Shown here one piece after another: positions 10,021 to 51,365 of a stretch of DNA of 64,000 bases; position 1 is the stretch's first letter, and every line of letters starts with the position of its first letter. Source of the DNA: Rhodococcus jostii RHA1 (GTDB lineage Bacteria > Actinomycetota > Actinomycetes > Mycobacteriales > Mycobacteriaceae); contig NC_008268.1 of assembly GCF_000014565.1 (NCBI RefSeq), forward strand, positions 2,790,001 to 2,854,000. Direction: 5' to 3'. Both the position numbers and the translations under genes were made by a program. The notes beneath the pieces are model-generated. The model did no database searches and was not told the origin of the DNA. It saw nothing but the letters and a program-made list of their open reading frames with translations.

Positions 10021-10331
10021 AGTGTTCCCTCGGACACGGGGCCGCCGAATACGACCGCGGGTGTCACAAACTCCTTTGCGATGACGCGTAGCTCGGCGCG
10101 AAGGGCATCGTCATCTCGCGGTCGGAGCAACCGTGCTGAGCCCTCAGCGCAGTAAGGGGGACCCTCGGCGCGTGAAGCTGCCACCTCTACCTCCTCGTGG
10201 CGGGTCTCGTGACTAGTGGCGCGTGATCCGAGAACGAAGTCCCTCATCTTCTCTTCATTCGCGCAAGGACGGGTGCAAGAGCGGCGCGTATTGCGGGGCA
10301 GCGAATTCGTGCGCTGCACCCGGCGGATTGA
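10021..10331 (-). other. Unassigned coding-like remnant
   Basis: A minus frame reads LLRPRDDDALRAELRVIAKEF followed by VTPAVVFGGPVSEGTLAHSEY, which looks like real protein sequence, but I cannot place it in a family. It has no intact start or stop context and lies between the LuxR fragment and the ALDH gene. Confidence 0.3.
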
Positions 10332-11774
10332 TCAGCGGGTGTACATCGATTTCGTGCGGACGTATGCGTCCAGACCTTCCGGTCCCAGTTCACGGCCGAG
10401 ACCACTGGCCTTGACTCCCCCGAACGGGGCTCCGATGTCGAGATCGAAGAAGTTCACACCCACGCTGCCGGTCTCGATCCGACGGGCCAGGTCGAGGCCC
10501 TTTTCGGGATCGGAGGTCCAGACCGTTCCGCCCAGCCCGTACTCGGAGTCATTGGCGATTGCGACGGCGTCGTCGAGGTCGTCATACGGCAGGACGGTCA
10601 GGACCGGCCCGAAGATCTCTTCCCGCGCGACGGTCGCCGAGTTGTCGAGGTCGGCGAACACGGTCGGTTCCACGAACCATCCCCGGTCGAGGTGTTTCGG
10701 CCGGCCGCCTCCGGCCGCGACGGTGGCGCCTTCTCGTCTACCCGTGTCGATGTACGCCTCCACACTGCGCCGTTGGCGCTCGGACACCAACGGTCCCACC
10801 CGGGTGGCGGGGTCGGCAGGGTCCCCGACCACGAGCTCCGACGCGAGGTGTGCGACCGCGTCGACTGTTTCGCGGTAACGAGACCGGGGAGCAAGGATTC
10901 GAGAGGACAGATAGCAGGTCTGGCCATTGTTGAGCAGGCTCGCCCAGGACAGTCCCCTGGCGACGCTCACCAGGTCCGCGTCGTCGAGGATGATGGCGGC
11001 GCTCTTGCCTCCCAGTTCCAGGGTCACCGGTCGCAGCAGGCGACCGCAGGTCTCCCCGATCACCCTGCCGGCGGCGGTCGACCCGGTGAAAGCGATTTTG
11101 TTCACCTCGGGGTGAGCCACCAGATAGGCACCGATCTCTCGGCCGCCGGTCACGATGTTCAGCACACCGCCGGGCAGCCCGGCTTCTTCGGCCGCGTCCG
11201 CGAGTTGGAAGGCGTCGAGCACGGTTTCGGGTGCAGGCTTGAGGACCACGGTGCATCCGGAAGCGAGTGCGGGGGCAAGCTTGAACATGGTCAGCGACTG
11301 GGGAAAGTTCCACGGAATGATCGCGGCGACAACGCCGATCGGCTCGCGGCGCACGATCGTGGTGGACCGACCGTTTGCGGCGATGCGCGGGGTCTCGACG
11401 GGTGTCTTCTCGGTCAGATCGGCGTAGTACCGGAGCGTCGCTGCCGGGCCGCTCCCCTCGGCCGCTAGGGATATCGCTGCCGGCATGCCGTTCTCGTCGG
11501 TCACGATGGCGGCGGTGTCTATTCGGCGCCGGTCGAGCGCATCGGCGAATCGCCGCAGGAGGTCGGCACGTTCAGCCGGTTCCAACTCAGACCACTCGGG
11601 TGCACGCAGGGCCCGGCGGGCTGCGGAAACTGCGGCGTCGACGTCGGCTGGGGTACTGTCCGGCGCCGACCCGACGGGTTCCTCGGTGGTCGGCGAGATA
11701 ACCGTGATGCGGTCGGAGGTGGACGGCGTATGCCATCTGCCGTCGATGAACAGATGCGATCGGGTGTACTTCAT
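10332..11774 (-). CDS. NAD(P)+-dependent aldehyde dehydrogenase, 480 aa
   Basis: A full-length ALDH with all core motifs: PIGVVAAIIPWNFP (substrate/cofactor strand), KIAFTGSTAAG (NAD loop), LELGGKSAAIIL (general-base Glu) and NNGQTCYLSSR with the nucleophilic Cys near residue 290, then EEIFGPVLTVLPY. It should oxidise an aldehyde to the acid. GAGG lies nine bases before the ATG. It is the second gene of a minus-strand unit behind a zinc ADH 30 bases upstream, so the pair can convert a primary alcohol to an acid. The unit starts next to the shared TGACCGT-N4-ACGGTCA operator. Substrate is not evident from sequence. Confidence 0.95.
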   Translation of the reverse strand: MKYTRSHLFIDGRWHTPSTSDRITVISPTTEEPVGSAPDSTPADVDAAVSAARRALRAPEWSELEPAERADLLRRFADALDRRRIDTAAIVTDENGMPAAISLAAEGSGPAATLRYYADLTEKTPVETPRIAANGRSTTIVRREPIGVVAAIIPWNFPQSLTMFKLAPALASGCTVVLKPAPETVLDAFQLADAAEEAGLPGGVLNIVTGGREIGAYLVAHPEVNKIAFTGSTAAGRVIGETCGRLLRPVTLELGGKSAAIILDDADLVSVARGLSWASLLNNGQTCYLSSRILAPRSRYRETVDAVAHLASELVVGDPADPATRVGPLVSERQRRSVEAYIDTGRREGATVAAGGGRPKHLDRGWFVEPTVFADLDNSATVAREEIFGPVLTVLPYDDLDDAVAIANDSEYGLGGTVWTSDPEKGLDLARRIETGSVGVNFFDLDIGAPFGGVKASGLGRELGPEGLDAYVRTKSMYTR

Positions 11775-11804
11775 GTGGGGAACCTCGGTCGTCGTGGTGC
11801 GCGG

Positions 11805-12902
11805 TCAGGGATGTGGGAGAAGAACCGGTTTGATGGCGTCGCCACGGGCGGCGTCCGCCTCGGCGACTGAGATCTCGGCGAGCGGGTAGGTGCGGATCAG
11901 CCGGTCGAACGGAAACCGGCCTTGACGCCAGAGTTCGATCAGTCGGGGCAACAGCAACTGCGGGACAGCGTCCCCTTCGAGGATTCCCATGATGTTCTTC
12001 CCGGCTGCCAGCACGGCCGGGGCGAGGACCAGTTCGCGGGTTGCGGCGCCGACGAGGCCGACGGTTCCGGTGGGCCGGAGGCTGTCGATCGCCGACGCGA
12101 TGACCTGCGGGACCCCGGTGGTGTCGAGGGCGGCGTGCACTCCGCTTCCGGTCAGCTTCCGAATCTGTCGCGCGATATCGTCAGCGGACCCTTCGATCAC
12201 GTCCGTCGCACCGAGTTCGAGGGCGAGATTCAAGCGATTCGCGTGCAGGTCGACGGCGATGATCCGGGAGGCGCCGGCGACGCGGGCGGCCATGATCGCC
12301 GACAGACCCACCGCGCCGGCACCGAAGACGGCGAACGTCGTGCCCGTGCCCACCTTCAGGGCGATCAGCGCGGACCCGGCGCCGGTCTGGATCCCGCATC
12401 CCAGCGGCCCCAGCAGATGCAGCGGTAGATCCTTGTCGACAACTACGACGTTGCGGGCACTGACGACCGCGTGGGTGGCCAGGGAGGACTGACCGAACCA
12501 CCGTGATGTAAGGGCGTTGCCGTTCAGGTCGGTGAGCGGGCCGGGCCCTTCGGGGCCGCGGCCGGACAGATTGCGCGCGAAGAACGCGAAACAGTACGCC
12601 GGGTGCCCACCCGCGCAGTTTTCGCACTGCCCGCAGGAATCGAACGACAACAGAACATGGTCACCGGCCTCGATGCCGGTGACGCCGGCGCCGACTTCCT
12701 CGACGACTCCGGCGCCCTCGTGGCCGACCACGATCGGCGGCTGGGCGAGGAATGACAGGTCTCTGGGCAGGACGTCGGTGTGACAGAACCCGACACCGGC
12801 GATGCGAACCCGTAGTTGGCCGCCGGTCGGGTCGGCCAATTCCACCGTCTCGATCTCGAACGGTGCGTCGTGGTGACGTAGCACTGCGGCTTCGATGCGC
12901 AT
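11805..12902 (-). CDS. Zinc-dependent alcohol dehydrogenase (XylB/aryl-alcohol type), 365 aa
   Basis: A medium-chain dehydrogenase with catalytic zinc ligands in GVGFCHTDV and VVGHEGAGVVEEVG, and the structural-zinc pattern C-x2-C-x2-C-x7-C in CGQCENCAGGHPAYC. The Rossmann motif is FAVFGAGAVGLSAI and the following Asp (IIAVDLHANRL) predicts NAD+ preference. Close family members act on benzyl, geranyl and similar primary alcohols. It is a clear paralogue of the ADH at 25468, sharing WFGQSS, THAV, SARN and LLGPLGC blocks. AGGGAG precedes the ATG. It heads the ADH-ALDH unit, with the operator at 12946 just upstream. Confidence 0.95.
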   Translation of the reverse strand: MRIEAAVLRHHDAPFEIETVELADPTGGQLRVRIAGVGFCHTDVLPRDLSFLAQPPIVVGHEGAGVVEEVGAGVTGIEAGDHVLLSFDSCGQCENCAGGHPAYCFAFFARNLSGRGPEGPGPLTDLNGNALTSRWFGQSSLATHAVVSARNVVVVDKDLPLHLLGPLGCGIQTGAGSALIALKVGTGTTFAVFGAGAVGLSAIMAARVAGASRIIAVDLHANRLNLALELGATDVIEGSADDIARQIRKLTGSGVHAALDTTGVPQVIASAIDSLRPTGTVGLVGAATRELVLAPAVLAAGKNIMGILEGDAVPQLLLPRLIELWRQGRFPFDRLIRTYPLAEISVAEADAARGDAIKPVLLPHP

Positions 12903-12945
12903 CGGAATGCTCCCTCTGTTCGGTGCGTAACCAGAACGTACAGAC

Positions 12946-12963
12946 TGACCGTCTGTACGGTCA
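12946..12963. promoter_or_regulatory. Operator copy 1, TGACCGT-CTGT-ACGGTCA
   Basis: A perfect 7+7 inverted repeat with a four-base centre, 44 bases upstream of the ADH start at 12902. The same arms recur at 16099 and 21834, each at the head of a transcription unit of the P450 cluster. The position fits a repressor site overlapping the promoter. Confidence 0.8.
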
Positions 12964-12995
12964 ATAGTCGTTGACGAGGTCGCTAGACCAGGTCC

Positions 12996-13163
12996 ATGCG
13001 TTTCGATATCGTGCAGGACTGCGAGGACGCGATCGAGCGCCTCTTCAACGCATTCGCCACGAGGGACGCCCAGGGGATCGCGACGCGAGCCCCTCCCCCA
13101 TCGTCGTCACGACACCCGCTGCCGCTGTCACGTAAAGCAGTTGAGCAACACTGCGATTCGTAG
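12996..13163 (+). pseudogene. Possible NTF2-like protein remnant
   Basis: A 55-codon frame begins MRFDIVQDCEDAIERLFNAF then ATRDAQGI, similar to the first helices of SnoaL/NTF2-like proteins (compare the intact gene at 26890). Then the frame drifts into low-complexity Pro/Ser sequence and stops. No ribosome site is clear. Tentative. Confidence 0.25.
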
Positions 13164-13236
13164 TTCGTCGAACATGTGGTCATCACTTATCGACCATCGG
13201 GGCGCTACCCTGCCCCACCGCGTGCTGCACGTCTCA

Positions 13237-14265
13237 TTATGCGAGAAGTTGTGCAACCGCCTCGATCGAGGAGTAACCGAGGCCCTGAAGTAGCAGCGTT
13301 TTGACCGCAGTCTTCTCCCATCGAACGAGGTCTTCTTTGATCTTGTCTCGTGATCCGACGAGGGCGACATCCTCGACCATGGCCAGGGGCACCGACGCGA
13401 TTGCTTCGGATTTGCGCCCCTCCAGGTAGAGACGCTGAATGCGTGCGCATTCCGCTTCGTAACCCATGCGCACAAACACTTGATTGTGAAAGTTGGCCTC
13501 CTTCGCGCCCATTCCACCCACGTAGAGCGCAATGTTGGGCCGGATCACGTCGGCTGCCTTCTCGATGTCGTCGTCGATGACAACGGGGACCGTGGCGGCG
13601 ATGTCGAAATCGTCGAGAGATCGGCGAGCCCCGGGTTTCGAGAATCCTTCCTCCAGCGCTCCTCGATAGAAGTCGTCCATTCGGGGCGAGTAGAAGATCG
13701 GCAGCCACCCATCGGCTATCTCGGCGGCGAGTGCGATGTTCTTTGGCCCCTCGGCCCCGAGATAGATCGGGATCTCGGTACGAATGGGGTGGATCATGGA
13801 CCGAAGTGGTTTTCCGAGGCCGGAGCCACCTTGCAGCGGGAGTTGGTAGAACGAACCGTCGTGACTCACGGGTTCGTCTCGTCGCACGAACTTACGGACG
13901 AGTTCGACGTATTCACGTGTGCGAGCGAGCGGCCGGGGATACGGCTGCCCGTACCATCCCTCGACGACCTGTGGCCCGGAGACGCCCAAACCCAGAATGA
14001 AGCGGCCTCGAGACAGGTGGTCCAGTGTCATCGCCGCCATGGCAGTCGCCGCTGGGGTCCGCGCCGACATTTGCAGGATATTGGTGCCCAACCTGACGGT
14101 ACTGGTTGAGGCGCCGTACCACGCCAAGGGGGTTAAGCAGTCGGATCCGTAGGTCTCGGCAGTCCAGACCGAGTCGTAGCCGAGACTCTCCGCAAGGGAG
14201 AAGGCCGCTCGTTCGTCGTCCGACGGCGCGGTAGACCAATAGCCCAGGTGGAATCCCAATTTCAT
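13237..14265 (-). CDS. LLM-class F420-dependent oxidoreductase, 342 aa
   Basis: The luciferase-like TIM barrel is evident: LGFHLGYWS at the N-terminus, LAESLGYDSVWTAETYGSD, VRLGTNILQMSARTPAATAM, LDHLSRGRFILGLGVSGPQV and EIPIYLGAEGPKNI. This pattern matches the actinobacterial F420-dependent LLM group rather than FMNH2 monooxygenases. Such proteins oxidise or reduce small organic substrates using F420. It sits 71 bases behind the acyl-CoA ligase on the same strand, so it belongs to the ligase unit driven from the shared operator at 16099. Its place in the pathway is inferred from position only. Confidence 0.9.
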   Translation of the reverse strand: MKLGFHLGYWSTAPSDDERAAFSLAESLGYDSVWTAETYGSDCLTPLAWYGASTSTVRLGTNILQMSARTPAATAMAAMTLDHLSRGRFILGLGVSGPQVVEGWYGQPYPRPLARTREYVELVRKFVRRDEPVSHDGSFYQLPLQGGSGLGKPLRSMIHPIRTEIPIYLGAEGPKNIALAAEIADGWLPIFYSPRMDDFYRGALEEGFSKPGARRSLDDFDIAATVPVVIDDDIEKAADVIRPNIALYVGGMGAKEANFHNQVFVRMGYEAECARIQRLYLEGRKSEAIASVPLAMVEDVALVGSRDKIKEDLVRWEKTAVKTLLLQGLGYSSIEAVAQLLA

Positions 14266-14336
14266 TGTTTGCTTGTCCTTACTTCGTCGTCATTGGTGTG
14301 TCTTGTTGTCGAGGTATGCGGATCCGGTGGTGGTGC

Positions 14337-15992
14337 CTACTGAGATGGTGGAAGCGCGCTGTCGCTCGTCCGGACAGTCCGCAGGTCGTTGACCACCAAT
14401 CCGTCGGCGTCGTAGCTCCGGCGCAGGTCCTTCTTGTCCAGCTTGCCGACACTGGTCTTGGGAAGGGTGTTGACGAAGGCCCACCGTTCGGGGAGCCACC
14501 AGCGGGCGACCTTGCCGTCGAGGAAGGCGAGCAGTTCGGGTGCGGTGGCGGTAGCTCCGGGCGCCAGTTTGATGCAGACGAACGGGCGTTCCTCCCATTT
14601 CGGGTCGGGTACTCCGATCACCGCGGCCTCGGCGACGGCGTCGTGCTCGAGCAGTGCGTTCTCGAGTTCGACCGTGGAGATCCATTCCCCGCCGCTCTTG
14701 ATGCCGTCCTTGAGCCGGTCCTTGAGCTGGATCCAGCCGCCCTCGTGCAGGACCCCGAGGTCACCGGTGCGCAACCAGCCGTCGTCGAACTTGTCCGGTG
14801 CGGCGGTGCGAAAATAGGTGCCCGCGATCGTCGCGCCGCGCAACTGGACTTCCCCGATGGATTCGCCGTCCCAGGGCAACTCGTCGCCGTATTCGTCGAC
14901 GATGCGCGCCTGCACTCCGGGGACGATGCGCCCCGTCAGGCTCGCCCACTGCGCCACGTCGGCGTCGGGTGTGTTGTGGGGTGGCCGGGAGAAGGTCAGG
15001 AGGGGGCTGGTTTCGGTCATCCCCCATCCCTGGGTCAACCGGACGCCGTGGCGGGACTGCATACTGCGGACCAAGGCAGCCGCCAGCGGGGAGCCGCCGG
15101 ATACGGCCAGACGCAGGCTGCTGAAGTCGACCGGGTGGGTTCGGGCGTACTCGTCGAGGCCGGTCCACAGTGTCGGCACGGCCGCGGCGGCGGTGGGCGC
15201 GAGGTCGGTGATGATGCGGGCCAGGTGGTCGATCTGGAGATATCGGTCGTTGAGGATGATGTCGGCCCCGCTCGTCCAGGCGGCGTGGGGCCAGCCCCAG
15301 GCGTTGGCGTGGAACATCGGCACGATCGGCAGGACCCGGTCGGCGTCGGAGAAGCCGAAGGCACTTCCGGTGGAGATCTGCAGGCTGTGTAGGTAGATGG
15401 ACCGGTGACTGTAGGCCACCCCCTTCGGGTCGCCGGTCGTCCCGGTGGTGTAGCAGAGCGCGGCGGCGCTGCGCTCATCGAGGCGCGGCCACCGGAAGTC
15501 GGTCTCGGTGTCCAGCATGTCGTCGAGGCGGTGCAGTTGCACACCGGTGGGAACGGCCAGGTCCGCCTCGCCCGCGACGATCACGTGCTCGACGGTGGGC
15601 AACCGGTCGATCACCCGCTGCAGCTGGGGCACCAGGTCCGCGTCGACGAGGATCACCTTGTCCGCGGCGTGGTTGGCGATGTAGACGATCTGATCGTCGT
15701 GCAGTCGCAGGTTCAGTGTGTGCAGCACCGCCCCCATTCCCGGTACCGCGAAATAGGCGGCCAGATGCGCCGGGCTGTTCCAGCACAACGTGGCAACGAC
15801 ATCGTCCTCGGACACGCCGAGGCGGCGCAGACCGGCGGCCAGGGAGGTCACCGCCGTCCCGAACTCCCGGAACGACCCTCGCCGTACCTCGCCCGCCCGA
15901 TAGTGCAGAACCGCACTGTCGGGGTGTGTGCGAAGGCCGTGCAGGAACAAATCCGACACGAGGAGATCGACATCTTGCATGGTGCTGTGCAT
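14337..15992 (-). CDS. Acyl-CoA synthetase (AMP-forming), AlkK-like, 551 aa
   Basis: A complete ANL-family ligase: P-loop CYTTGTTGDPKGVAYSHRS near residue 185, the A5 motif GWGMTETSPLL, the hinge and A8 region TGDLGVLHEGGWIQLKDRLK then GIKSGGEWIST, and the catalytic lysine region LPKTSVGKLDKKDLR. The IKSGGEWIS form is typical of medium-chain AlkK-like enzymes. It activates a carboxylic acid to its CoA ester. Start may be 15992 or the internal ATG 15980; neither has a perfect ribosome site. It diverges from the P450 operon with the shared operator between them, and the LLM gene follows. Confidence 0.93.
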   Translation of the reverse strand: MHSTMQDVDLLVSDLFLHGLRTHPDSAVLHYRAGEVRRGSFREFGTAVTSLAAGLRRLGVSEDDVVATLCWNSPAHLAAYFAVPGMGAVLHTLNLRLHDDQIVYIANHAADKVILVDADLVPQLQRVIDRLPTVEHVIVAGEADLAVPTGVQLHRLDDMLDTETDFRWPRLDERSAAALCYTTGTTGDPKGVAYSHRSIYLHSLQISTGSAFGFSDADRVLPIVPMFHANAWGWPHAAWTSGADIILNDRYLQIDHLARIITDLAPTAAAAVPTLWTGLDEYARTHPVDFSSLRLAVSGGSPLAAALVRSMQSRHGVRLTQGWGMTETSPLLTFSRPPHNTPDADVAQWASLTGRIVPGVQARIVDEYGDELPWDGESIGEVQLRGATIAGTYFRTAAPDKFDDGWLRTGDLGVLHEGGWIQLKDRLKDGIKSGGEWISTVELENALLEHDAVAEAAVIGVPDPKWEERPFVCIKLAPGATATAPELLAFLDGKVARWWLPERWAFVNTLPKTSVGKLDKKDLRRSYDADGLVVNDLRTVRTSDSALPPSQ

Positions 15993-16098
15993 GGCAGGTC
16001 CGTCCTGGCTGTGAGGAATCAGTGTCGTTCCGCTGCCCCGTCGGCCGGATTTACGGAACCGAGCCGGTCTTGACCCGCGGACAGCTGCTCTCTACCCT

Positions 16099-16116
16099 AG
16101 ACCGTACGTACGGTCA
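16099..16116. promoter_or_regulatory. Operator copy 2, AGACCGT-ACGT-ACGGTCA
   Basis: This copy differs from copies 1 and 3 by one base in the first position of the left arm. It lies in the divergent gap between the ligase (start 15992 or 15980) and the P450 (start 16182), so one site could control both transcription units. The inner 16 bases are fully palindromic. Confidence 0.8.
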
Positions 16117-16181
16117 GTCAAGATGTTCTGCTGATCCTCTGCTCGACCATCCCCTTCCTGCCAGCCCCTGAAGGAAACGCC

Positions 16182-17414
16182 ATGACGTTATCGGCCCTGC
16201 ACACCGACCTCGGAAGTCCCGACGCGTACATCCACGGAGTTCCCCATCAGGTATTCGCCGAGCTCCGTCGCCACGAGCCGGTGGCCTGGATCGAGGAGCC
16301 GGCCGGTGAGGGTTTCGCCGGCGGTCCCGGGTTCTGGGCAGTCACCCGCTACGACGACGTGATGACGGTCTCGAAGAAGCCGGACGTCTTCTCCTCCCAC
16401 AAGGGTGCGTCGTTCCTGCGCGATCAGAGCCCTCAGGATCTTGCCGCCCTGCAGCAGATGATGCTCAACCTCGACCCCCCGGACCACTCGCAGATGCGGT
16501 CGATCGTCAGCAAGGTTTTCACTCCGAAGATGGTGCGCGGGATGTTCGACAGCATCGCTGATCACGCTCGCGCCATCGTCGATGCATTGCCCGACGACGG
16601 TGAGATCGACCTCGTCGAACACGTCTCGGCGGAGATGCCGCTGCGGGTCCTCGCCGACGTCCTCGGTGTGCCGTCGGAAGATCGGCACCTGCTCTACGAC
16701 TGGACCAATCGGATGGTCGGCCTCGACGATCCCTCCTACGGAGGCCGCGAGGCTTTCCTTTCTGCATTCATCGAAATGTTCGAGTACTCCGCGGCTCAGA
16801 CCAGGGCCAAGCGCACCGAACCCGGGTCGGACGTGTGGTCGTTGATCGTCAATGCCGAGGTCGACGGCACCCAGCTGTCCCCCGAAGAGCTCAACCGGTT
16901 CTTTCAACTACTGGTCATCGCCGGAAACGAAACCACCCGCAACCTGCTGACCGGCGCGATCCTCACCCTCGGCGAACACCCCGGTGAACGTGAGAAGCTC
17001 GCCGACGATCCGGCGCTGCTGCCGAACGCCATCGAAGAGGTGCTGCGGTTCCACTCCCCCGTCATCCAGTTCCGGCGCACGGTGACCCGGTCGACCGAAC
17101 TCGGCGGCAAGCAGATGCACGAGGGACAGAAGGTCGTCATCTTCTACGTCTCGGCCAACCGGGACGAAGCACAATTCGATGACCCGGACACCTTCCGCAT
17201 CGACCGCGGCGCCGCCAATCACCTCGCCTTCGGCGCCGGCACCCATTTCTGCCTGGGCAACAGCCTCGCCCGCCTCGAGGCGAAGGTGCTGCTCGAAGCC
17301 CTGTTCACGCGCTTCCCGCACTGGCAGGTCACCGGACCCCCGGACCGGTTCCGGTCGAACTTCATCCACGGGATCAAGAAGCTCCCCGTTCACCTCGGAA
17401 AGGCCACGTCATGA
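16182..17414 (+). CDS. Cytochrome P450, 410 aa
   Basis: A soluble class I bacterial P450. The I-helix oxygen motif is VIAGNETTRNLL, the ExxR pair is in EEVLRFHSP, and the heme loop is FGAGTHFCLGNSLAR with Cys357 as the axial ligand. It also has the substrate-side stretch MLNLDPPDHSQMRSIVSKVF, as in CYP124/125/142 and CYP108-like enzymes. It should hydroxylate an unactivated C-H bond using O2. AAGGAAA precedes the ATG at seven bases. The ferredoxin ATG overlaps its stop (ATGA) and the reductase follows, giving a self-contained electron chain. Which substrate it takes cannot be told from sequence; isoprenoid or steroid-like side chains are plausible given the neighbours. Confidence 0.97.
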   Translation: MTLSALHTDLGSPDAYIHGVPHQVFAELRRHEPVAWIEEPAGEGFAGGPGFWAVTRYDDVMTVSKKPDVFSSHKGASFLRDQSPQDLAALQQMMLNLDPPDHSQMRSIVSKVFTPKMVRGMFDSIADHARAIVDALPDDGEIDLVEHVSAEMPLRVLADVLGVPSEDRHLLYDWTNRMVGLDDPSYGGREAFLSAFIEMFEYSAAQTRAKRTEPGSDVWSLIVNAEVDGTQLSPEELNRFFQLLVIAGNETTRNLLTGAILTLGEHPGEREKLADDPALLPNAIEEVLRFHSPVIQFRRTVTRSTELGGKQMHEGQKVVIFYVSANRDEAQFDDPDTFRIDRGAANHLAFGAGTHFCLGNSLARLEAKVLLEALFTRFPHWQVTGPPDRFRSNFIHGIKKLPVHLGKATS

Positions 17415-17605
17415 AGATCTGTGTCGACCGCACCAAGTGCACCGGCCTCGGTATCTGCGAATCCCTCGCCCCGGACATCTTCGAGATCGACGATGCCGGC
17501 GGGCTGCTGCTGCTGCGCGAGGACGCCGATGACAGTGTCATCGACGACGTCCGCGCCGCCATCGAGGGGTGCCCCACCGAGGCACTCACGCTCATCGAGG
17601 ACTGA
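17411..17605 (+). CDS. Ferredoxin, 3Fe-4S type, 64 aa
   Basis: A small single-cluster ferredoxin: CTGLGIC places Cys10 and Cys16 with Leu13 where a 4Fe-4S protein would have a cysteine, and Cys54 lies in GCPTEA. That three-Cys arrangement is typical of 3Fe-4S ferredoxins that serve actinobacterial P450s. Acidic surface residues (REDADDSVIDD) fit docking to a P450. Translation is coupled to the P450 by an ATGA overlap. Confidence 0.95.
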   Translation: MKICVDRTKCTGLGICESLAPDIFEIDDAGGLLLLREDADDSVIDDVRAAIEGCPTEALTLIED

Positions 17606-17611
17606 CCGACC

Positions 17612-18844
17612 ATGACCGAACAGAATCTCGTGGTAGTCGGGGCGTCACTGGCGGGCCTGCGCGCCGCCGAGGCGGCCCGCAAGGCCGGCTTCACCGGATC
17701 GGTGACCCTCGTCGGCGCCGAGGAACACCTGCCCTACGACCGTCCCCCGCTGTCGAAGGCGTACCTCGACCCGTCGCCGACACCACCGGACACCACCTTC
17801 AGGGCGCGCAACGCCCTCGACGACGTGGGAATCGACCTCCGTCTCGGCACCGTCGCCACCCGGCTCGACCCGGACGAGCAAATGATTCACACCTCGCGCG
17901 GCTCACTGCCCTACGACATCGCCGTCATCGCGACCGGATCGTCGGCGCGGATGCTGCCGGGCACGGCTGCCATGGCCGGCGTGGTCACCCTCCGCACACT
18001 CGACGACGCAGTCACCGTGCGCACCGCCCTCGACAACCGGGCCCGCACAGTGGTCGTCGGTGCCGGATTCATCGGCTCCGAGGTTGCCTCGGGGGCACGC
18101 AAACGAGGCCTGGACGTCACCGTGGTCGAGGCCCTGCCGGTCCCCCTGGTGCGCGCGATCGGTACGGACATGGGCCGTGCCTGCGCGGACCTTCACCGGC
18201 GCAACGGAGTCGACCTGCGCTGCGGCGTCGGGGTCGAGAAGGTCCTCGGCAACGGACACGTCGAGGCAGTGCAATTGTCGGACGGCTCAACTCTCGAGGC
18301 AGATCTGGTCGTGGTCGGGGTCGGCGCGGACCCCGCCACCGAGTGGCTCGAGACCTCGGGCATCACACTCGAAAGCGGTGTCGTCTGCGACGAAACCATG
18401 GCGACCTCGCTGCCGGGGGTCTACGCCGCCGGGGACGTCGCCCGCTGGCACAATCCGCTGTTCGATGCATCCATGCGGCTCGAGCACTGGACCAGTGCCG
18501 CAGAGCAGGGAGCCCTCGCCGTCCGCAACGCGCTCGACCCACAGGCCGCGAAGCCGTACAGCACCGTGCCGTATTTCTGGTCCGACTGGTACGACACCCG
18601 GATCCAATTCGTGGGAGTGCCCGAGGCCGACGAAATACGCACCGTCACCGGACATCTCGAGGACGGCCAGTTCGTGGCGCTCTACCGCCGCGGCGACCGG
18701 GTCGTGGGCGCGCTGGCCCTCGACCACCAGACCCACATCATGAAATATCGTGCCCTGATCGCCAAGCGTGCGAGCTGGGAGCAAGCGCTCGATTACGCGC
18801 GCACTCGCCAGCACAAGGACGAGCCGCTCGACGCGGCCCGCTGA
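17612..18844 (+). CDS. FAD-dependent ferredoxin reductase, 410 aa
   Basis: A putidaredoxin-reductase-type flavoprotein: FAD motif VVVGASLAGLRAAEAARKAG at residues 6-25, LPYDRPPLSK, NAD motif VVVGAGFIGSEVASGARKRG around residue 148, and the second FAD motif GVYAAGDVARW. The C-terminal FeS-reductase domain contains YFWSDWYDTRIQFVG. It passes electrons from NADH to the adjacent ferredoxin and so to the P450. GAGG lies upstream of the ATG, seven bases after the ferredoxin stop, so the three genes form one operon. Confidence 0.96.
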   Translation: MTEQNLVVVGASLAGLRAAEAARKAGFTGSVTLVGAEEHLPYDRPPLSKAYLDPSPTPPDTTFRARNALDDVGIDLRLGTVATRLDPDEQMIHTSRGSLPYDIAVIATGSSARMLPGTAAMAGVVTLRTLDDAVTVRTALDNRARTVVVGAGFIGSEVASGARKRGLDVTVVEALPVPLVRAIGTDMGRACADLHRRNGVDLRCGVGVEKVLGNGHVEAVQLSDGSTLEADLVVVGVGADPATEWLETSGITLESGVVCDETMATSLPGVYAAGDVARWHNPLFDASMRLEHWTSAAEQGALAVRNALDPQAAKPYSTVPYFWSDWYDTRIQFVGVPEADEIRTVTGHLEDGQFVALYRRGDRVVGALALDHQTHIMKYRALIAKRASWEQALDYARTRQHKDEPLDAAR

Positions 18845-18886
18845 CTCATCAGGGCTCACCCGGACACACTGCAGAAAAGAGGGTCG

Positions 18887-20050
18887 ATGCCAGAGCGCAA
18901 CGCCACCATCGTCGGATACGGCCTCACCGAAGTGGGCAAGGTCTTCGGGAAGACCGCGCGTGGATTCGCCGCGGAGGCGGTCCGGTTGGCTGTCGCCGAT
19001 GCCGGGTTGTCCCTCGGCGACGTCGACGGGCTCCTCGTCAACGCCCGAGCGGGCACCGATCTGAACCTGACCCTCGCTCGCACCCTGGGGCTCGGGAATC
19101 TTCGGCTGCTCAGCGAGATCAATGCATTCGGCGCCTCGGCCGCCATCATGATCGCCCAGGCCTCGAAGGCAGTGCTGTCCGGCGAAGCGGAGGTCGTGGT
19201 GTGCGTGTTCGCCGACGACCCCAAGAAGCAGGACACCGGCGGAGCGCACGCGTACCGGACCAGCTCCCTGACGGCGACGGGCTTCCGCAGCGCCGAGACC
19301 GCCGCCGGGTTCACCAGCGTCAATCACCGCTACGCACTGGCCGCGCGCCGCTACATGGACCACTACGGGCTCACCTCCTCCCACCTCGGCGCCGTAGCGG
19401 TGTCTCAGCGGGCGTGGGCACTCGACAATCCGGTGGCCCAGATGCGGACGCCGTTGACCCTGGGCGAGTACCACCAGTCGCGCTGGGTGGTCGAACCGCT
19501 GCATCTGCTCGACTGCTGCCTCGTCTCCAACGGTGGTGCCGCAATCGTGGTGACCACCCCGGAGCGGGCACGGGATCTGCCGAACACACCGGTGTACGTC
19601 CGCGGGTGGGGTCAAGCCCACCCGGGATACGTCCTCGAACGTGACAGCGATTTCGGCCTCGTGACCGGCGCCGCCGCATCCGGGCCGGCGGCGCTGAAGA
19701 TGGCCGGAATGACCGTCGACGACATTGATCTGCGGGAAATCTACGACTGCTACACCTACACCCTCCTGGTGACGCTCGAGGACTACGGATTCTGTGGCAA
19801 GGGCGAAGCCGGGGAGCTCGCCGCCAGCGGGGCACTCGCCCCCGGCGGCACCCTGCCCACCAACACCGGCGGCGGGCAACTGTCCTCTTTCTATCTGTGG
19901 GGCATGACCCCGTTGATAGAAGCCCTCACGCAATTGCGAGGAGAAGGCGGCCGACGGCAGGTCCGTGAGCACGCCACCGCCATCGTCAGCGGCAACGGCG
20001 GCATTCTCGACCACCACGGCACCCTGGTTCTCGCCACCAGCTCGGCGTGA
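18887..20050 (+). CDS. Thiolase-fold lipid-transfer protein (Ltp2-like aldolase), 387 aa
   Basis: A thiolase-superfamily protein of the SCP-x/Ltp class. Where thiolases have the nucleophilic Cys (ACASG) this one reads EINAFGASAA, so Cys is replaced and thiolysis is not expected. The block EIYDCYTYTLLVTLEDYGFC and NTGGGQLSSFYLWGMTPL are typical of Ltp2-type steroid side-chain aldolases, which rely on Tyr residues and need a DUF35 partner; that partner is the next gene. The likely reaction is retro-aldol cleavage of a 3-hydroxyacyl-CoA type intermediate. It follows the ferredoxin reductase by 42 bases in the same unit. An alternative is a condensing or lipid-carrier role. Confidence 0.85.
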   Translation: MPERNATIVGYGLTEVGKVFGKTARGFAAEAVRLAVADAGLSLGDVDGLLVNARAGTDLNLTLARTLGLGNLRLLSEINAFGASAAIMIAQASKAVLSGEAEVVVCVFADDPKKQDTGGAHAYRTSSLTATGFRSAETAAGFTSVNHRYALAARRYMDHYGLTSSHLGAVAVSQRAWALDNPVAQMRTPLTLGEYHQSRWVVEPLHLLDCCLVSNGGAAIVVTTPERARDLPNTPVYVRGWGQAHPGYVLERDSDFGLVTGAAASGPAALKMAGMTVDDIDLREIYDCYTYTLLVTLEDYGFCGKGEAGELAASGALAPGGTLPTNTGGGQLSSFYLWGMTPLIEALTQLRGEGGRRQVREHATAIVSGNGGILDHHGTLVLATSSA

Positions 20051-20075
20051 ACACCCGCAACGGAGAAGGAACACG

Positions 20076-20459
20076 ATGACATTTCCCGCCGTCCGGGACG
20101 AGACCTCGGCACCGTACTTCGAGGCCCTCCGGGAGGGCAGGTTGATCTTGCGGTCATGCACCCGATGTGGGCACGTCTGCCGGCCCGACACCCTCAGCTG
20201 CAGCTCATGCCACAGCGACGAGATCACGTGGGTCGGCTCCACTGGTGACGGGGTGGTGGTGTCCGCAGTCGTCGACCACGCGAGTGCGCCCGAGCCCACC
20301 GTCCTTGCGCTGGTCGAGCTCCGAGAAGGACCGTGGTTTGCCAGCCGCATCCTCGACGTCGCCACCGCGTCCGACGTCCCGGTATCCACACCGGTGCGGT
20401 TGCGCATCACCGAATTTGCCGACGGTGAAGCGATTCCCACGTTCGTTCTCGCCACCTGA
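20076..20459 (+). CDS. DUF35 / OB-fold zinc-ribbon protein, partner of Ltp, 127 aa
   Basis: The N-terminal helix (YFEALREGRLILRSCTRCG) leads into a rubredoxin-like zinc ribbon with CTRCG and CSSCH, followed by an OB fold (GDGVVVSAVVDHASAPEP). Such proteins pair with cysteine-less thiolase-fold proteins in Ltp/DUF35 aldolases and hydratases. I chose ATG 20076 because GGAGAAGGA lies directly upstream; a longer reading from 19965 lies inside the preceding gene. The pairing with the gene upstream, 25 bases away, is strong evidence of one enzyme. Confidence 0.9.
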   Translation: MTFPAVRDETSAPYFEALREGRLILRSCTRCGHVCRPDTLSCSSCHSDEITWVGSTGDGVVVSAVVDHASAPEPTVLALVELREGPWFASRILDVATASDVPVSTPVRLRITEFADGEAIPTFVLAT

Positions 20460-20553
20460 CCATCACATCGACGGTGCGCCGGATCCACGAGTGATCACAC
20501 AGCGCTTAGACTGACTGCACAATCAGGACCGTGAACGAGGTGGAGGTAGCGAA

Positions 20554-21255
20554 ATGGCAAAGGCCGGTACCCGGCTGGCCGGAAAAGCCAACGCGATCCT
20601 CGAGGTCTTCACGCACAACGTCGCGCAGTTCGGCTACGACGGGACGAACCTGAGCGACATCGCCAACGAGTTGTCGATCTCCAAGGGCACGATCGTCCAT
20701 CATTACGGCACCAAGGATCGCCTGCTCGCCGCCCTGCACACGTCCTACATGCGCCGCCGCCTCACCGAAGCGAAGCTACTGATCGGCAAACTCGATCATC
20801 CCGAGCAGCAACTCGCGGGACTGCTGTTCGCGTTCATCCTCTACCAAGAGCACGACCGCGACGCCACGATCGCGTTCCAGCGCGAGGTCATGCGCCTGGC
20901 AGCGCTCGATATCGACACCGAGGGACTCGAACTACGCGCCGAATACATCCAGCTGGTGCGTGACGTAATCGAAGCCGGAATCGCCGCGGGACGGCTTCGA
21001 AAAACGGATCTGCGGATTCAGTCACTGCTGATGTTCGGATCCGCGCAATGGGCCTACACCTGGTTCGATCCGAGCGGTGACGAATCCGTCGAAGAGGTCG
21101 GGGCAGCACTGGTCGATCTCGTGCTGGGCAGTCTCCTGGTCCGTCGCACGGCACTACCGGGGTTGTCGGACCCGAGAGGACTGGCCGCCCAGACCGCGCG
21201 CCAGTGCCTGCTCGAAACGTCCGCCGAATCCGACAGCGGGCTCGCTGCATCCTGA
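20554..21255 (+). CDS. TetR/AcrR family regulator (KstR2-like), probable regulator of the P450 cluster, 233 aa
   Basis: A clear TetR HTH: VFTHNVAQFGYDGTNLSDIA then ELSISKGTIVHHYGTKDRLL (residues about 17-56). The C-terminal domain with FILYQEHDRDATIAFQREV and MFGSAQWAYTWFDPSG follows the KstR2/TetR_C group that senses CoA thioesters. It lies 94 bases after the DUF35 gene at the end of the P450 operon, with GGAGG eight bases from its ATG. It is the only regulator inside the cluster, so I infer it binds the three TGACCGT-N4-ACGGTCA sites. That assignment has not been tested. Confidence 0.9.
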   Translation: MAKAGTRLAGKANAILEVFTHNVAQFGYDGTNLSDIANELSISKGTIVHHYGTKDRLLAALHTSYMRRRLTEAKLLIGKLDHPEQQLAGLLFAFILYQEHDRDATIAFQREVMRLAALDIDTEGLELRAEYIQLVRDVIEAGIAAGRLRKTDLRIQSLLMFGSAQWAYTWFDPSGDESVEEVGAALVDLVLGSLLVRRTALPGLSDPRGLAAQTARQCLLETSAESDSGLAAS

Positions 21256-21833
21256 TCACAGTATCGTGACCGCCGCCGATACCAACATCAGCGCCGCCGA
21301 CGACGGTCGACCAAGCCTGCTTATTCGGCACGCACATACATAGCGGGAAAAGGGGCATGGGCATCGGCCCCGCTCGATACTGCGCCTTTTCGGGTGAAGG
21401 CTGTCTCCCGCCACCCGGTACCGCCGCTCGGGTTCGGTCAGTCCGCTGCGAGTAGAGCCGTATCGAGCTAGCTCGCTGCACCGCCCGGGTGCCCGGAGCG
21501 CTCGCCACCGCACTTCGAACGCTTCCGATCTGCACCCAAAAGCATTGGGGTACTCACCACGGCGACACCCGCTAGAGATCGCACGCCGTAGCTTTGTCAG
21601 GCGGCCGCGGCCGAGCGTACGCATCCCTGCCGACCCGGCGGCAAGAACACAGCGACGAACCTGGTTGCGCAGCAATAACTTGCGAACGAGACACGATTTC
21701 TGCCGGTAGGTGTCCTCGCGGCAAATCGGCAATGCGTCGACTGTGCGGCGCAATACCGATCGCCCTCCATGTTTGGTTTTCCGCCCAAACCGTTCAGCGG
21801 CCCCTTGTGCTGCACGTCACGATTCTGCTTTAC
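21256..21833. other. Gene-free stretch between regulator and second CoA-ligase unit
   Basis: I see no family pattern in any frame here. The 3' part must contain the promoter for the 21902 unit, whose operator begins at 21834. The base composition looks the same as the flanks, and a decayed gene is possible. Confidence 0.4.
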
Positions 21834-21851
21834 TGACCGTGCGTACGGTCA
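21834..21851. promoter_or_regulatory. Operator copy 3, TGACCGT-GCGT-ACGGTCA
   Basis: Perfect 7+7 inverted repeat 51 bases upstream of the acyl-CoA ligase start at 21902. The right arm continues GTACGGTCA as in copy 2. It places the ligase-SCP2-ALDH-ADH unit in the same predicted regulon. Confidence 0.8.
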
Positions 21852-21901
21852 CTAGTTGAGCCGGGCGAAACGGACTGAACAATCCCCTCGAGAGGTGCCT
21901 G

Positions 21902-23455
21902 ATGGCTTCACCCATCCACCATGTCTTCGACCCGATCACATACTGGGTATCGCAGGATCCCACCCGAGTCGCGCTGCGCTTCGAGGACCAGTCGTGGACA
22001 TGGCAACAGTTGTCGGACCGGGTGCGGCGTAACGCCGCAGCACAGTCCGCACTCGGGCTGGCGCCCGGTGACCGGGTCGCGTTCCTGGACAAGAATCACC
22101 CCGCCAGCCTCGAGACCACACTGGCGTGCGCCTTGGCCGGAACGGTGAACGCGGTACTGAACTACCGCCTCGCACCGTCCGAATTGGCCTACGTCATCAA
22201 CGACAGCCGTGCCGAACTGCTGATCCTCGGCGCCGAATTCGTCGACGTCGTCGACGCGATCAAGCCGAACCTCGACCACGTGCGCACCATCATCGTGCTC
22301 GGTGGCGAGGCGGACGAGTACGAGGCATGGCTCGGCAAGGCCCCGCCGCGCGAGATCGCTCATCCAGCCCATCCGGAGGATTGCTTCCTGCAGCTCTACA
22401 CCTCCGGCACCACCGGGCACCCGAAGGGAGCCATGCTGACACACCGCTCCGTGGGCGCCCACAGCATTGCGGCCAGCGCCGCCTTCGGCTTCGCCCGGGA
22501 CAGCGTGAACATGGTCGCCATGCCGCTCTTTCATGTGGGTGGCACCAGCTGGGCACTGGCCGCAATGTCGCAGGGCGCGGAGACGATCCTCGTACGCGAG
22601 GTCGTTCCCGCGGTAGTTCTGGACCAGATCACCCGCCAGTCGGTCACCCACGCGTTCTTCGTCCCCGCCGTCATCCGGTTCTTCCTGCAGGTCCCGGGTG
22701 TGTCCGCACGAGACTTCCGATCGCTGCGCTGCCTCGGATACGGCGGATCGCCCATGCCCGAAGCCCTCCTACGAGAGGCGATGAGCACCTTCGAGGTCGA
22801 CTTCTACCAGGTCTACGGCATGACCGAGGCGTCCGGAGTGTTCTGCGTACTCGGGCCGCAGGACCACCGCGACCCCGCCCGGCCCGAACTGCTCCGCGCG
22901 GCAGGCCGGCCGGTCGAGGGTGCCGAAGTCCGGGTGGTCGACCCGGCCACCGGCGACGAACTGCCCAGCGGAGAGGTCGGGGAGTTCCAGATCCGCGGAC
23001 CGCAGGTGATGGCCGGGTACTGGCAGCGCGAGGCGGACACCGCCGCCAGTTTCGATGGGGAGTGGTTCAGGACCGGTGACGCCGGCCGACGGGATCCCGA
23101 CGGGTTCTTCTTCGTCGAAGACCGGGTCAAGGACGTGATCATCTCCGGCGGTGAGAACATCTACCCCGCCGAGGTGGAGCGCGTGGTCAGTGAGTTTCCC
23201 GACGTCGCGGAAGTCGCCGTCATCGGCGTCCCCGACGACAAATGGGGCGAAGTGGTCCGCGCGGTCGTCGTCGCGAAGAGCGGCGCCGACATCGACGAGA
23301 ACAAACTGCTCGACTTCTGTGCCGCTCATCTGGCCGGTTACAAGCGGCCCCGCACCATTGACATCGTCACGAGCCTGCCGCGCAACGCGACAGGAAAGAT
23401 TCTCAAGCGCGATCTGCGCGCACCACATTGGGCCGGCCGCAGCCGATCGGTCTGA
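21902..23455 (+). CDS. Long-chain acyl-CoA synthetase (FadD-type), 517 aa
   Basis: Complete AMP-forming ligase: P-loop LYTSGTTGHPKGAMLTHRS, A5 motif QVYGMTEASG, TGDAGRRDPDGFFFVEDRVK followed by DVIISGGENIYPAEVE, and the C-terminal LPRNATGKILKRDLR with the catalytic Lys. It resembles mycobacterial/rhodococcal FadD3-like enzymes, and differs from the AlkK-like ligase at 14337 in its ISGGENIYP loop. It makes a CoA ester, so the cluster has two ligases for two acid intermediates or two substrate classes. First gene of a four-gene unit behind operator copy 3. Confidence 0.95.
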   Translation: MASPIHHVFDPITYWVSQDPTRVALRFEDQSWTWQQLSDRVRRNAAAQSALGLAPGDRVAFLDKNHPASLETTLACALAGTVNAVLNYRLAPSELAYVINDSRAELLILGAEFVDVVDAIKPNLDHVRTIIVLGGEADEYEAWLGKAPPREIAHPAHPEDCFLQLYTSGTTGHPKGAMLTHRSVGAHSIAASAAFGFARDSVNMVAMPLFHVGGTSWALAAMSQGAETILVREVVPAVVLDQITRQSVTHAFFVPAVIRFFLQVPGVSARDFRSLRCLGYGGSPMPEALLREAMSTFEVDFYQVYGMTEASGVFCVLGPQDHRDPARPELLRAAGRPVEGAEVRVVDPATGDELPSGEVGEFQIRGPQVMAGYWQREADTAASFDGEWFRTGDAGRRDPDGFFFVEDRVKDVIISGGENIYPAEVERVVSEFPDVAEVAVIGVPDDKWGEVVRAVVVAKSGADIDENKLLDFCAAHLAGYKRPRTIDIVTSLPRNATGKILKRDLRAPHWAGRSRSV

Positions 23456-23508
23456 TCCGAATCCGGACAAGCACCAACCACAGACCCCAATCCGAAAGGG
23501 AAAACACC

Positions 23509-23913
23509 ATGAGCTACTTCACCGACGCCTCCGAGGTCTACCGCTACCTGGGCGGAGTCTTCCGCGCAGCCAACGACGAACCGACCGCCGGCCCTGCGCT
23601 CAAGGACGCCGACCTCATCCTCCGACTCGACTACACCAACCCCGATTCGTCGCTCACCGTCACACTGAAGCCAGAAGGCATCGAGGTGATCGAAGGCGAA
23701 AACGACCTCATCCCGGACGTCCGGTTGGCGATGTCCGCCGACAACGGCAACAAGTTCTGGCGCGGTGAATACAACGTCGCGGTGGGGTTGGCCAAGGGCC
23801 AGGTCAAGGCCAAGGGCCCGGTGTCGAAGATCCTCAAGCTGATTCCGATCTCCAAGCCGCTCTTCCCGATCTACAAGAACCTGGTCGCCGAGAAAGACGC
23901 CCAGCACAGCTGA
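23509..23913 (+). CDS. SCP2 sterol-binding-domain protein, 134 aa
   Basis: A short alpha/beta protein in the SCP2 pattern: DLILRLDYTNPDSSLTVTLK, then GIEVIEGENDLIPDVRLAMS, ADNGNKFWRGEYNVAVGLAK and GQVKAKGPVSKILKLIP. SCP2 proteins bind lipids or fatty acyl-CoAs in a hydrophobic tunnel. I chose ATG 23509 with GAAAGGGAAAA upstream. It lies between the ligase and an ALDH, so presenting a hydrophobic substrate to these enzymes is the natural reading. Confidence 0.85.
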   Translation: MSYFTDASEVYRYLGGVFRAANDEPTAGPALKDADLILRLDYTNPDSSLTVTLKPEGIEVIEGENDLIPDVRLAMSADNGNKFWRGEYNVAVGLAKGQVKAKGPVSKILKLIPISKPLFPIYKNLVAEKDAQHS

Positions 23914-23944
23914 TCACACGGCCTCGAGCAAGGACATCCCAACC

Positions 23945-25471
23945 ATGACAGCCATACCGCACTACACCCAGTTCATCGACGGTCAATGGGTCGATACCGA
24001 CCGCACGTTCGACATCATCGATCCCGCGAACGGCGAACTGGTCGCCACCGCCGCCCGTGGCTCCGTCGAGAACCTCGACCAGGCGGTCGCCGCCGCCAAA
24101 GCTGCCCACGCCCGGGGTGAGTGGCGCACGAAGACGCCGGACGAACGCGCCGACATCCTGTCGGCGATTGTCGCCGACCTGTCCGAGCGCATGGAGGAGC
24201 TGGTTGCTCTGCACGTCAAGGAGAACGGCGTCACCATCCGCCAGGCGATGGCCTTCCACGTCGGCTACTCGATCTCGCATCTGCAGTACTTCGCCGACCT
24301 GGCCCGCACCTACGAATTCGAGCGGTCAGGGCCGCAATTGTCCTACCCGACATTGGCATCCGGGATCGTGCGCCGGGAACCGATCGGTGTGGTCGCCGGC
24401 ATCGTGCCGTGGAACTTCCCGCTGCTGCTTGCTGTGTGGAAACTCGGTCCCGCCTTGGCGGCCGGCAACACCATCGTGCTCAAGCCCGACGAGAAGACGC
24501 CGCTCACCCTGCTCGAACTGGCCAAGTCGGCGGAACGGGCCGGGCTGCCGAAAGGTGTCCTCAACATCGTCACCGGTGCCGGCGAAGAGGTCGGAGCCCG
24601 TCTCGCCGCACACCCGGACGTACGCAAAATCGCCTTCACCGGGTCGACGGCGGTCGGCCGGGAGATCAGCAAGCTTGCCGCGGAGAACATCAAGAAGGTC
24701 ACCCTCGAACTCGGCGGCAAGGGACCGAACATCGTGCTCGCCGACGCCGACATCGACTCCGCGGTCGACGGGGCACTCTTCGCCTGCTTCCTCTACGCTG
24801 GTCAGGCATGCGAGTCGGGAACCCGGCTGCTGCTGCCCGAGAGCTTGCACGACGAATTCGTCGACCGCCTGGTGCAGCGGGCGGCGACCATCAAGGTCGG
24901 CGACCCGTCGGAGTTCGACACCGACATCGGTCCGGTCATTTCCGCCGAGCAGCACGCCCGGATTCTCGACTACATCGAAATCGGCCAGAAGGAGGGCGCA
25001 ACCCTCGCGTTCGGCGGTGAACCGCCCACCGGAACGCAATTCGAGCAAGGGCACTGGGTGCGCCCGACGATCTTCACCGACGTCACACCCGACATGCGCA
25101 TCGCCCGCGAGGAGATCTTCGGTCCCGTCCTGTCGGTTCTGAAGTACCGCACCGTCGACGAAGCCGTCGCGATCGCCAACGACTCCGAGTACGGATTGTC
25201 GGCCGGGGTGTGGAGCGAAGACCTCGAAGCGGCACTCGTCGTCGCGGCGCGAATCGAGTCGGGCACCGTCTGGATCAACGACTGGCACATGGTCAACGCT
25301 CTCTACCCCTTCGGTGGTTACAAGCAGAGCGGAAACGGCCGCGAACTCGGACCCCACGCGCTCGACGAGTACACCGAGGAGAAGTTCGTCCACGTCGACC
25401 TCTCGCGCTCCGTCGACCGCAAGGTGTACGACCTTGTCCTGCCCGCGGCCCAGGCGGCGGTGAACCGATGA
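23945..25471 (+). CDS. NAD(P)+-dependent aldehyde dehydrogenase, 508 aa
   Basis: All ALDH motifs are present: PIGVVAGIVPWNFPLLLAVW, KIAFTGSTAVGREI, LELGGKGPNIVLADADI (general-base Glu) and YAGQACESGTRLLLPES with the catalytic Cys near residue 300, then EEIFGPVLSVLKY. AAGGA lies upstream of the ATG. Its stop overlaps the ADH start (ATGA), so alcohol and aldehyde oxidation are translationally coupled. It is a distinct paralogue of the ALDH at 10332. Confidence 0.95.
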   Translation: MTAIPHYTQFIDGQWVDTDRTFDIIDPANGELVATAARGSVENLDQAVAAAKAAHARGEWRTKTPDERADILSAIVADLSERMEELVALHVKENGVTIRQAMAFHVGYSISHLQYFADLARTYEFERSGPQLSYPTLASGIVRREPIGVVAGIVPWNFPLLLAVWKLGPALAAGNTIVLKPDEKTPLTLLELAKSAERAGLPKGVLNIVTGAGEEVGARLAAHPDVRKIAFTGSTAVGREISKLAAENIKKVTLELGGKGPNIVLADADIDSAVDGALFACFLYAGQACESGTRLLLPESLHDEFVDRLVQRAATIKVGDPSEFDTDIGPVISAEQHARILDYIEIGQKEGATLAFGGEPPTGTQFEQGHWVRPTIFTDVTPDMRIAREEIFGPVLSVLKYRTVDEAVAIANDSEYGLSAGVWSEDLEAALVVAARIESGTVWINDWHMVNALYPFGGYKQSGNGRELGPHALDEYTEEKFVHVDLSRSVDRKVYDLVLPAAQAAVNR

Positions 25472-26571: not shown

Positions 26572-26739
26572 GCACTAGATGCCGGGAAACATGTTCGATC
26601 CTCGTGGCGAGGGTGTTCCTCCCGTCGTGGCCGGACGAATGACGAAGCTGCCGATGTCCACACGTGGGACAAGTCAACGGTGCACCTCCGAGACCCCCAG
26701 TCACGGGAGCGTGGCCTGCGCGCTCCTCCGTGTGACGCC

Positions 26740-26771
26740 GCGTGGGCGGTCCGCAACGGGACCGCCCACGC
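26740..26771 (+). terminator. Strong hairpin after the second ADH/ALDH unit
   Basis: Arms GCGTGGGCGGTCC and GGACCGCCCACGC pair perfectly over 13 bp around the loop GCAACG. It lies about 170 bases after the ADH stop and 118 bases before the NTF2-like gene. No clear T-run follows, as often in actinobacteria. Confidence 0.65.
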
Positions 26772-26889
26772 CACCTCGCACCAACCGGCGCAGTGCCTTT
26801 CTGGGCTCAGGACCCACGGCCCCAACCATTGGTACACAAACCCCATCCACCAACACATCACCGTGTTCAACCACGAAGGATCTGACTCG

Positions 26890-51298: not shown

Positions 51299-51365
51299 GG
51301 AGTACCTCCAGGGTTGCGGGTTGGGCAGCGCGTCTTCGCGGGGGCGTCGGGTCGGCGAGGCCACT

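Follow-up and report, generated by a model that had tools for sequence, protein, structure and literature searches.

What controls the probable lipid-breakdown cluster of Rhodococcus jostii RHA1 that is built around a cytochrome P450 gene, and do three near-identical palindromes within it belong to a single switch? The cluster lies in a stretch of 64,000 nucleotides (contig NC_008268.1, C1:2790001-2854000), here called the window, and includes a gene for a TetR-family regulator at position 20554. The sequence-only reading had proposed that palindromes of the form TGACCGT-N4-ACGGTCA tie the cluster into one TetR regulon. Our analysis favors this answer with good confidence: the palindromes are predicted to be the operators of a TetR-family repressor encoded at 20554, which would control four transcription units. 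That the palindromes and the TetR form a real, conventional, small local control circuit is very likely, because the same site also lies close to relatives of this TetR in other bacteria. A literature search that left most subscription journals outside its range turned up no paper on either the cluster or the motif.

The palindromes are present at 12946, 16099, and 21834, with zero, one, and zero mismatches, respectively (operators 1 to 3; Table 1). As the sequence-only reading had stated, they stand close before the starts of the units: all three are intergenic, with a start codon at 43 to 106 bp from each, and operator 2 lies 106 bp from the start of the acyl-CoA ligase gene LIG1 (15992, minus strand) and 65 bp from that of the P450 gene (16182). 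In the whole genome (9,702,737 bases, 4 contigs), the exact 18-mer has two copies, both in the P450 cluster, so the palindrome is not scattered over the genome. Six 18-mers with one mismatch were found, operator 2 among them, and sites with up to two mismatches number 140. The five one-mismatch copies outside the cluster were rejected as regulon members because all lie within reading frames (four long open reading frames [ORFs] and one GntR/UTRA gene). From 132 two-mismatch sites we estimate, by our own arithmetic, that about 7 one-mismatch copies and 0.2 exact copies would arise by chance; the real surplus therefore lies in the two exact copies and in their clustering rather than in the loose matches.

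The window holds 13 matches to the 18-mer in all, compared with 4.8 expected from shuffles, and the remaining ten have three mismatches each. The claim that no other copies occur in the window thus holds for the 18-mer but not for its 14-bp core, of which a further exact copy (ACCGTACGCACGGT, three mismatches from the 18-mer) is found at 59660. This copy lies inside an SDR-like reading frame, is probably a chance occurrence, and was left out of the regulon. A matrix derived from the sites of other genomes ranks the three palindromes as the top three of the window (operator 1, 25.3; operator 2, 29.5; operator 3, 28.5; maximum, 31.6), with the L018 copy of operator 2 and the identical L019 copy of operator 3 being included in that matrix. 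The fourth-best score in the window belongs to GGACCGTACGCACGGTTC (59658 to 59675), which holds the exact core at 59660 (SDR-like frame, 59168 to 59950, minus strand).

The consensus derived from the relatives is ACCGT-N-CG-N-ACGGT, flanked by TGA and TCA. The freely variable N4 center assumed earlier was not borne out, since the center in relatives is mostly NCGN and operator 1, with CTGT, departs from it. A second inverted repeat, CGTACAGAC-TGACC-GTCTGTACG (12937 to 12959), overlaps operator 1 and was listed as a terminator-like stem; more than one dimer could bind there.

The assignment of the sites to the TetR at 20554 is based on a comparison of loci. Relatives were taken from 15 homologous loci, of which four short ones (L027 to L030) were dropped, and from a search of 397 genomes of the order, 25 of which, including the present one, had a TetR match at E <= 1e-40. 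Leaving out the own genome, as well as two duplicates, gave 33 nonredundant loci with 37 to 82% identity. The palindrome was discovered in one genome and then sought in the others, with 119 permuted palindromes as the control. The exact core was found at the projected TetR start (-150 to +30) in 15 of the 33 relatives (control maximum, 0) and in the wide region (-4.8 to +1.3 kb) in 19 (control maximum, 1). When one mismatch was allowed, the counts rose to 19 (control maximum, 1) and 25 (control mean, 0.98; maximum, 8), respectively. Among relatives of less than 54% identity, the core within one mismatch was present in 17 of 18 at the TetR start and in all 18 in the wide region. Looser thresholds gave 45 sites in 29 of the 33 loci, an upper figure because the sole match in L082 scores low and a few of the remaining sites are distant from the TetR gene. 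Fourteen other TetR-like loci in the same genome (3.4 to 3.6 kb each) all lacked the core within one mismatch. Sequence comparison thus agrees with the TetR at 20554 as the probable reader of the sites, as had been proposed.

Conservation extends to the neighborhood of the sites. In Streptomyces sp. V4I2 (L018), 19 bp at operator 2 (TAGACCGTACGTACGGTCA), between LIG1 and the P450 gene, are identical, while 74 of 132 aligned positions are identical in the LIG1-P450 spacer around it; this locus keeps the order LIG1, site, P450, ferredoxin, ferredoxin reductase, Ltp, DUF35, and TetR at 50 to 73% identity. In a Rhodococcus metagenome bin (L016), a block of 37 bp around operator 3, before the second ligase gene (LIG2), is identical.

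The distribution across genomes points in the same direction. The strict form of the site (WGACCGTNCGNACGGTYA), composed after the sites in some of these genomes were known, is present in 77 of the 397 genomes. Outside family f15, it occurs in 15 of 25 TetR-bearing genomes versus 2 of 294 without the TetR (Fisher test, 2e-17; 2e-16 without the own genome). Within f15, 60 of 78 genomes, counted by hand, carry the strict form without a TetR match. For 26 of the 28 f15 loci checked (L144 to L171), the trigger-factor gene contains the motif; in L164 the motif falls in another long ORF, and in L170 it was not placed in a gene. The trigger-factor copies, a coincidence of codons, would distort a simple count of the motif. 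Close orthologues of the TetR are rare in the class, as 2 of 394 genomes of a class sample, the own included, have one at E <= 1e-60; within the genus, 2 of 28 genomes have a match at E <= 1e-40, namely, the present one and G016, which seems to be the bin that gave L016. This patchy distribution suggests horizontal spread.

The protein encoded at 20554 matches PF00440 (37 bits; cutoff, 24) and TetR_C_24 (73 bits; cutoff, 26), and its predicted model (predicted local distance difference test score, 89.8) has an all-helical fold like that of solved TetR regulators. Its structural neighbors include KstR2 (4w97), which is the best, PfmR, and AibR with isovaleryl-CoA, all near the top (template modeling score by target length, 0.82 to 0.85), followed by FadR with stearoyl-CoA; the two ligands were read from the titles of entries 5k7h and 3whc. 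KstR2 is likewise an acyl-CoA-binding regulator. Of the 33 relatives, 31 have exactly the recognition helix SKGTIVHH[YF]GTK. In L087 it is one letter off (GNK) and the site is present, and in L072 the helix (SRGLIAHHFGTK) is more divergent and no site was found. A palindrome near the altered TetR of L072 (TGACTGTCTGCGCAGTCA) was considered as a covarying site and rejected: the frequency of 7+4+7 palindromes in these loci is about 0.5 per 150 nucleotides, and no covariation of helix and site is therefore claimed.

Several observations weigh against the repressor-operator assignment. The 14-bp core by itself is not rare, with four exact copies genome-wide, two of them in the cluster. No sigma-70-like promoter that the TetR might occlude was found in the region from 10000 to 27000. 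Relatives of at least 54% identity have the core within one mismatch in only 2 of 15 cases at the TetR start; the wide region gives 7 of 15, and 10 of 15 with the looser 18-mer. No site was found at the looser thresholds in L017, L022, L025, and L072, the first three of which keep the helix; the L017 contig begins 1.1 kb before the TetR gene, and L022 has a three-mismatch copy before a molybdenum hydroxylase gene. The best-scoring site in L020, L022, L023, L026, and L079 is a weaker copy before such a gene, about 3 kb upstream. With f15 included, the genome comparison becomes 15 of 25 versus 62 of 372 (Fisher test, 4e-6; 1e-5 without the own genome), and it is not independent, because 10 of the 15 positives belong to genus g2 and the strict form was composed post hoc. 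The third-best structural match, DarR, binds cyclic di-AMP and not acyl-CoA (title of 8suk). As the neighbors are split in this way, the suggestion of an acyl-CoA inducer class is tentative.

Of the competing explanations, the one that survives best, though we consider it unlikely, is that the palindromes are real operators but that another TetR reads them, alone or along with the cluster TetR; examples would be the nearest paralogue in the genome (contig C4, 38% identity) and the TetR at C1:1129875-1130486. At the 5' end of the latter (TetR_N, TetR_C_28) stands an exact copy of the 14-bp core (ACCGTCCGGACGGT), and related palindromes, TGACCGGACGTACCGTCA within the frame of an enoyl-CoA hydratase and TGACCCTACGTACCGTAA, are found a few kilobases from the C4 paralogue. 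However, the recognition helix of the C4 paralogue differs (SKGTILHHFKSKE), and its locus shows no core within one mismatch in 3.5 kb or 18 kb; the C1 protein belongs to another C-terminal family and is absent from the 15 matches to the cluster TetR at E <= 1e-5. It is the relatives of the cluster's own TetR that the site accompanies from genome to genome. The 18 positions at the 5' end of the C1 TetR gene read GAACCGTCCGGACGGTAA (L141, 9917 to 9934; C1:1129916), possibly a convergent operator.

Slightly less probable again is that the TetR acts as an activator, or that some of the sites are not its targets, in which case there is no single on/off regulon. The position of promoters relative to the sites could not be set, and AtrA, located 425 bp from its divergent neighbor, is reported as a TetR-family activator (PMC3511530). 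In the same source, each of the five TetR regulators that were tested and lay less than 200 bp from a divergent target repressed it (PMC3511530). All three sites here are less than 110 bp from start codons, and in ten relatives from genus g2, whose gene content suggests mycobacteria, the site lies 7 to 26 bp from the projected TetR start, a repressor-like position. An origin of the palindromes by chance or by coding coincidence can practically be dismissed: coding coincidences of the motif exist, as the f15 trigger-factor genes show, but the three sites are intergenic, the exact 18-mers occur only in the cluster, and both the permuted-palindrome control and the cross-species footprint speak strongly against chance.

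The genes under the predicted operators are listed in Table 1. Their spacing suggests four units: ADH1-ALDH1 (alcohol and aldehyde dehydrogenases), LIG1-LLM, P450-ferredoxin-reductase-Ltp-DUF35-TetR, and LIG2-SCP2-ALDH2-ADH2.

Table 1. Putative operators and cluster genes, with positions in the window
Feature	Position	Strand	Sequence	Mismatches	Basis or remark
Operator 1 (putative)	12946-12963		TGACCGTCTGTACGGTCA	0	43 bp from ADH1 start codon (12902, minus)
Operator 2 (putative)	16099-16116		AGACCGTACGTACGGTCA	1	Between divergent LIG1 and P450
Operator 3 (putative)	21834-21851		TGACCGTGCGTACGGTCA	0	50 bp upstream of LIG2 (21902)
ALDH1, aldehyde dehydrogenase 1	10332-11774	-			Family annotation
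ADH1, zinc alcohol dehydrogenase 1	11805-12902	-			PDB matches: zinc ADH 5tnx, then benzyl alcohol dehydrogenase 1f8f
LLM oxidoreductase, F420-type	13237-14265	-			TIGR03559, Rv3520c type, above cutoff
LIG1, acyl-CoA ligase 1	14337-15992	-			Sequence matches
Cytochrome P450, CYP125/CYP124-like	16182-17414	+			Sequence matches, PDB
Ferredoxin, single-cluster	17411-17605	+			Fer4_13
Ferredoxin reductase	17612-18844	+			Family annotation
Ltp, thiolase-fold lipid-transfer protein	18887-20050	+			Half of predicted retro-aldolase
DUF35/ChsH2-type OB-fold partner of Ltp	20076-20459	+			Sequence matches
TetR-family regulator	20554-21255	+			TetR_N + TetR_C_24; recognition helix SKGTIVHHYGTK; proposed reader of the three sites
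LIG2, acyl-CoA ligase 2	21902-23455	+			Sequence matches
SCP2 sterol-transfer domain protein	23509-23913	+			Domain match
ALDH2, aldehyde dehydrogenase 2	23945-25471	+			45% identical to ALDH1
ADH2, zinc alcohol dehydrogenase 2	25468-26571	+			45% identical to ADH1

The two ligases share 34% identity. Against PDB sequences, the P450 scored 446 bits with the construct CYP125MRCA, 308 with CYP124, and 286 with CYP125. Ltp matched thiolase 4u4e and Ltp2 of 6ok1, while the DUF35 protein matched ChsH2 of 6ok1, and the adjacency of the two genes is as expected of a putative Ltp-DUF35 retro-aldolase. No acyl-CoA dehydrogenase or hydratase was present among the annotated cluster genes. Together, the enzymes fit a predicted pathway in which a branched or isoprenoid lipid undergoes oxidation at a methyl group, activation to a CoA ester, and retro-aldol cleavage. 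Elsewhere in the window, a secretory lipase family (LIP) match is located downstream of ADH2 (27407 to 29095), and there are two metallo-beta-lactamase-fold genes, possibly paralogues (35194 to 36105 and 50372 to 51364).

The cluster resembles several known systems. Sterol side-chain modules comprise CYP125/CYP142, FadD, Ltp, and ChsH2-type DUF35 proteins, and the present cluster likewise has a CYP125-like P450 and an Ltp-DUF35 pair resembling 6ok1, along with an Rv3520c-type LLM protein and SCP2; it differs in having two ADH-ALDH pairs and in its annotated genes lacking an acyl-CoA dehydrogenase or hydratase. KstR2 (Rv3557c), the TetR repressor in cholesterol metabolism of Mycobacterium tuberculosis, is the best neighbor of the cluster TetR in structure and also a sequence match, and it controls the CoA-ester catabolism of a steroid-derived lipid. 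However, the two proteins share 22% identity, the enzyme sets differ, and the KstR2 operator is presumably a different palindrome. AtuR of Pseudomonas aeruginosa, which acts in acyclic terpene use, stands beside a terpenoid catabolic cluster, and in L085 and L086 a site precedes a stretch encoding AtuA; AtuR comes from another phylum, however, and no atu genes were found among the scanned genes of this cluster. AtuR is described as a TetR-like repressor (PMC3511530).

The mycobacterial Rv0767c/G155_05115 "motif X" regulon is similar in layout, with a TetR and a palindrome before operons for P450, ADH, ALDH, and SDR proteins, most of which are reported to be induced by phytosterol (PMC6593523). 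It was rejected as the same system because the Rv0767c loci carry a different palindrome, a comparison made without the printed letters of motif X. In eight Rv0767c-like/Rv0768-like regions, where the TetR was identified by its position beside a TIGR04284 match (Rv0768-like gene), TGGACACATGTCCA or a one-letter variant (TGGACACCTGTCCA in one) occurred in seven and was absent from L099. The Rv0767c-type TetR was not among the matches to the cluster TetR in the 397-genome search at E <= 1e-40. Contrary to this rejection, ACCGT-type cores are present in L093 (ACCGTGCGCACGGT) and L094, in both cases within the reading frame of the TetR.

If the palindromes are operators of the TetR at 20554, a TetR dimer would bind the two half-sites, TGACCGT and ACGGTCA, around a mostly NCGN center and would block all four units. 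Since the TetR gene ends the P450 unit, the regulator would also restrain its own expression. The inducer would most likely be an acyl-CoA intermediate of the pathway. In that pathway, the P450 may hydroxylate a methyl group, which ADH and ALDH would oxidize to an acid; the ligases would activate the acid to a CoA ester, and Ltp-DUF35 would cleave it by a retro-aldol reaction. The substrate may belong to the branched or isoprenoid class (terpenoid or sterol-side-chain-like).

In this genome, no convincing site was found beyond the three, and the regulon seems to consist of three sites and four transcription units. The expectation of further sites next to related genes was therefore borne out in other species only. 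There, the TetR with an operator-like site precedes YrbE/Mce-type lipid import genes (MlaE, Mce4_CUP1) in three loci of genus g2 (L073, L074, and L091), and sites are also found near the molybdenum hydroxylase genes mentioned above, a GMC oxidoreductase gene (L019), MDMPI_N and AtuA genes (L085 and L086), an HMGL-like gene (L087), and SDR and ABC transporter genes (L088). A lipid or terpenoid function is not universal among these genes. We tentatively suggest, at somewhat below even probability, that an actinobacterial TetR clade has retained a single operator (ACCGT-N-CG-N-ACGGT) and a single recognition helix even as the adjacent genes were exchanged, forming a portable switch for lipid catabolism with an inducer from isoprenoid or steroid breakdown. 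The exchanged cargo would, with the same reservation, comprise P450-Ltp clusters, molybdenum hydroxylases, the GMC oxidoreductase, AtuA operons, the HMG-CoA-lyase-like gene, and Mce-type importers. For R. jostii RHA1, the analysis provides a candidate operator for a catabolic cluster, together with the likely class of its inducer, and the motif flags related operons in other actinobacteria.

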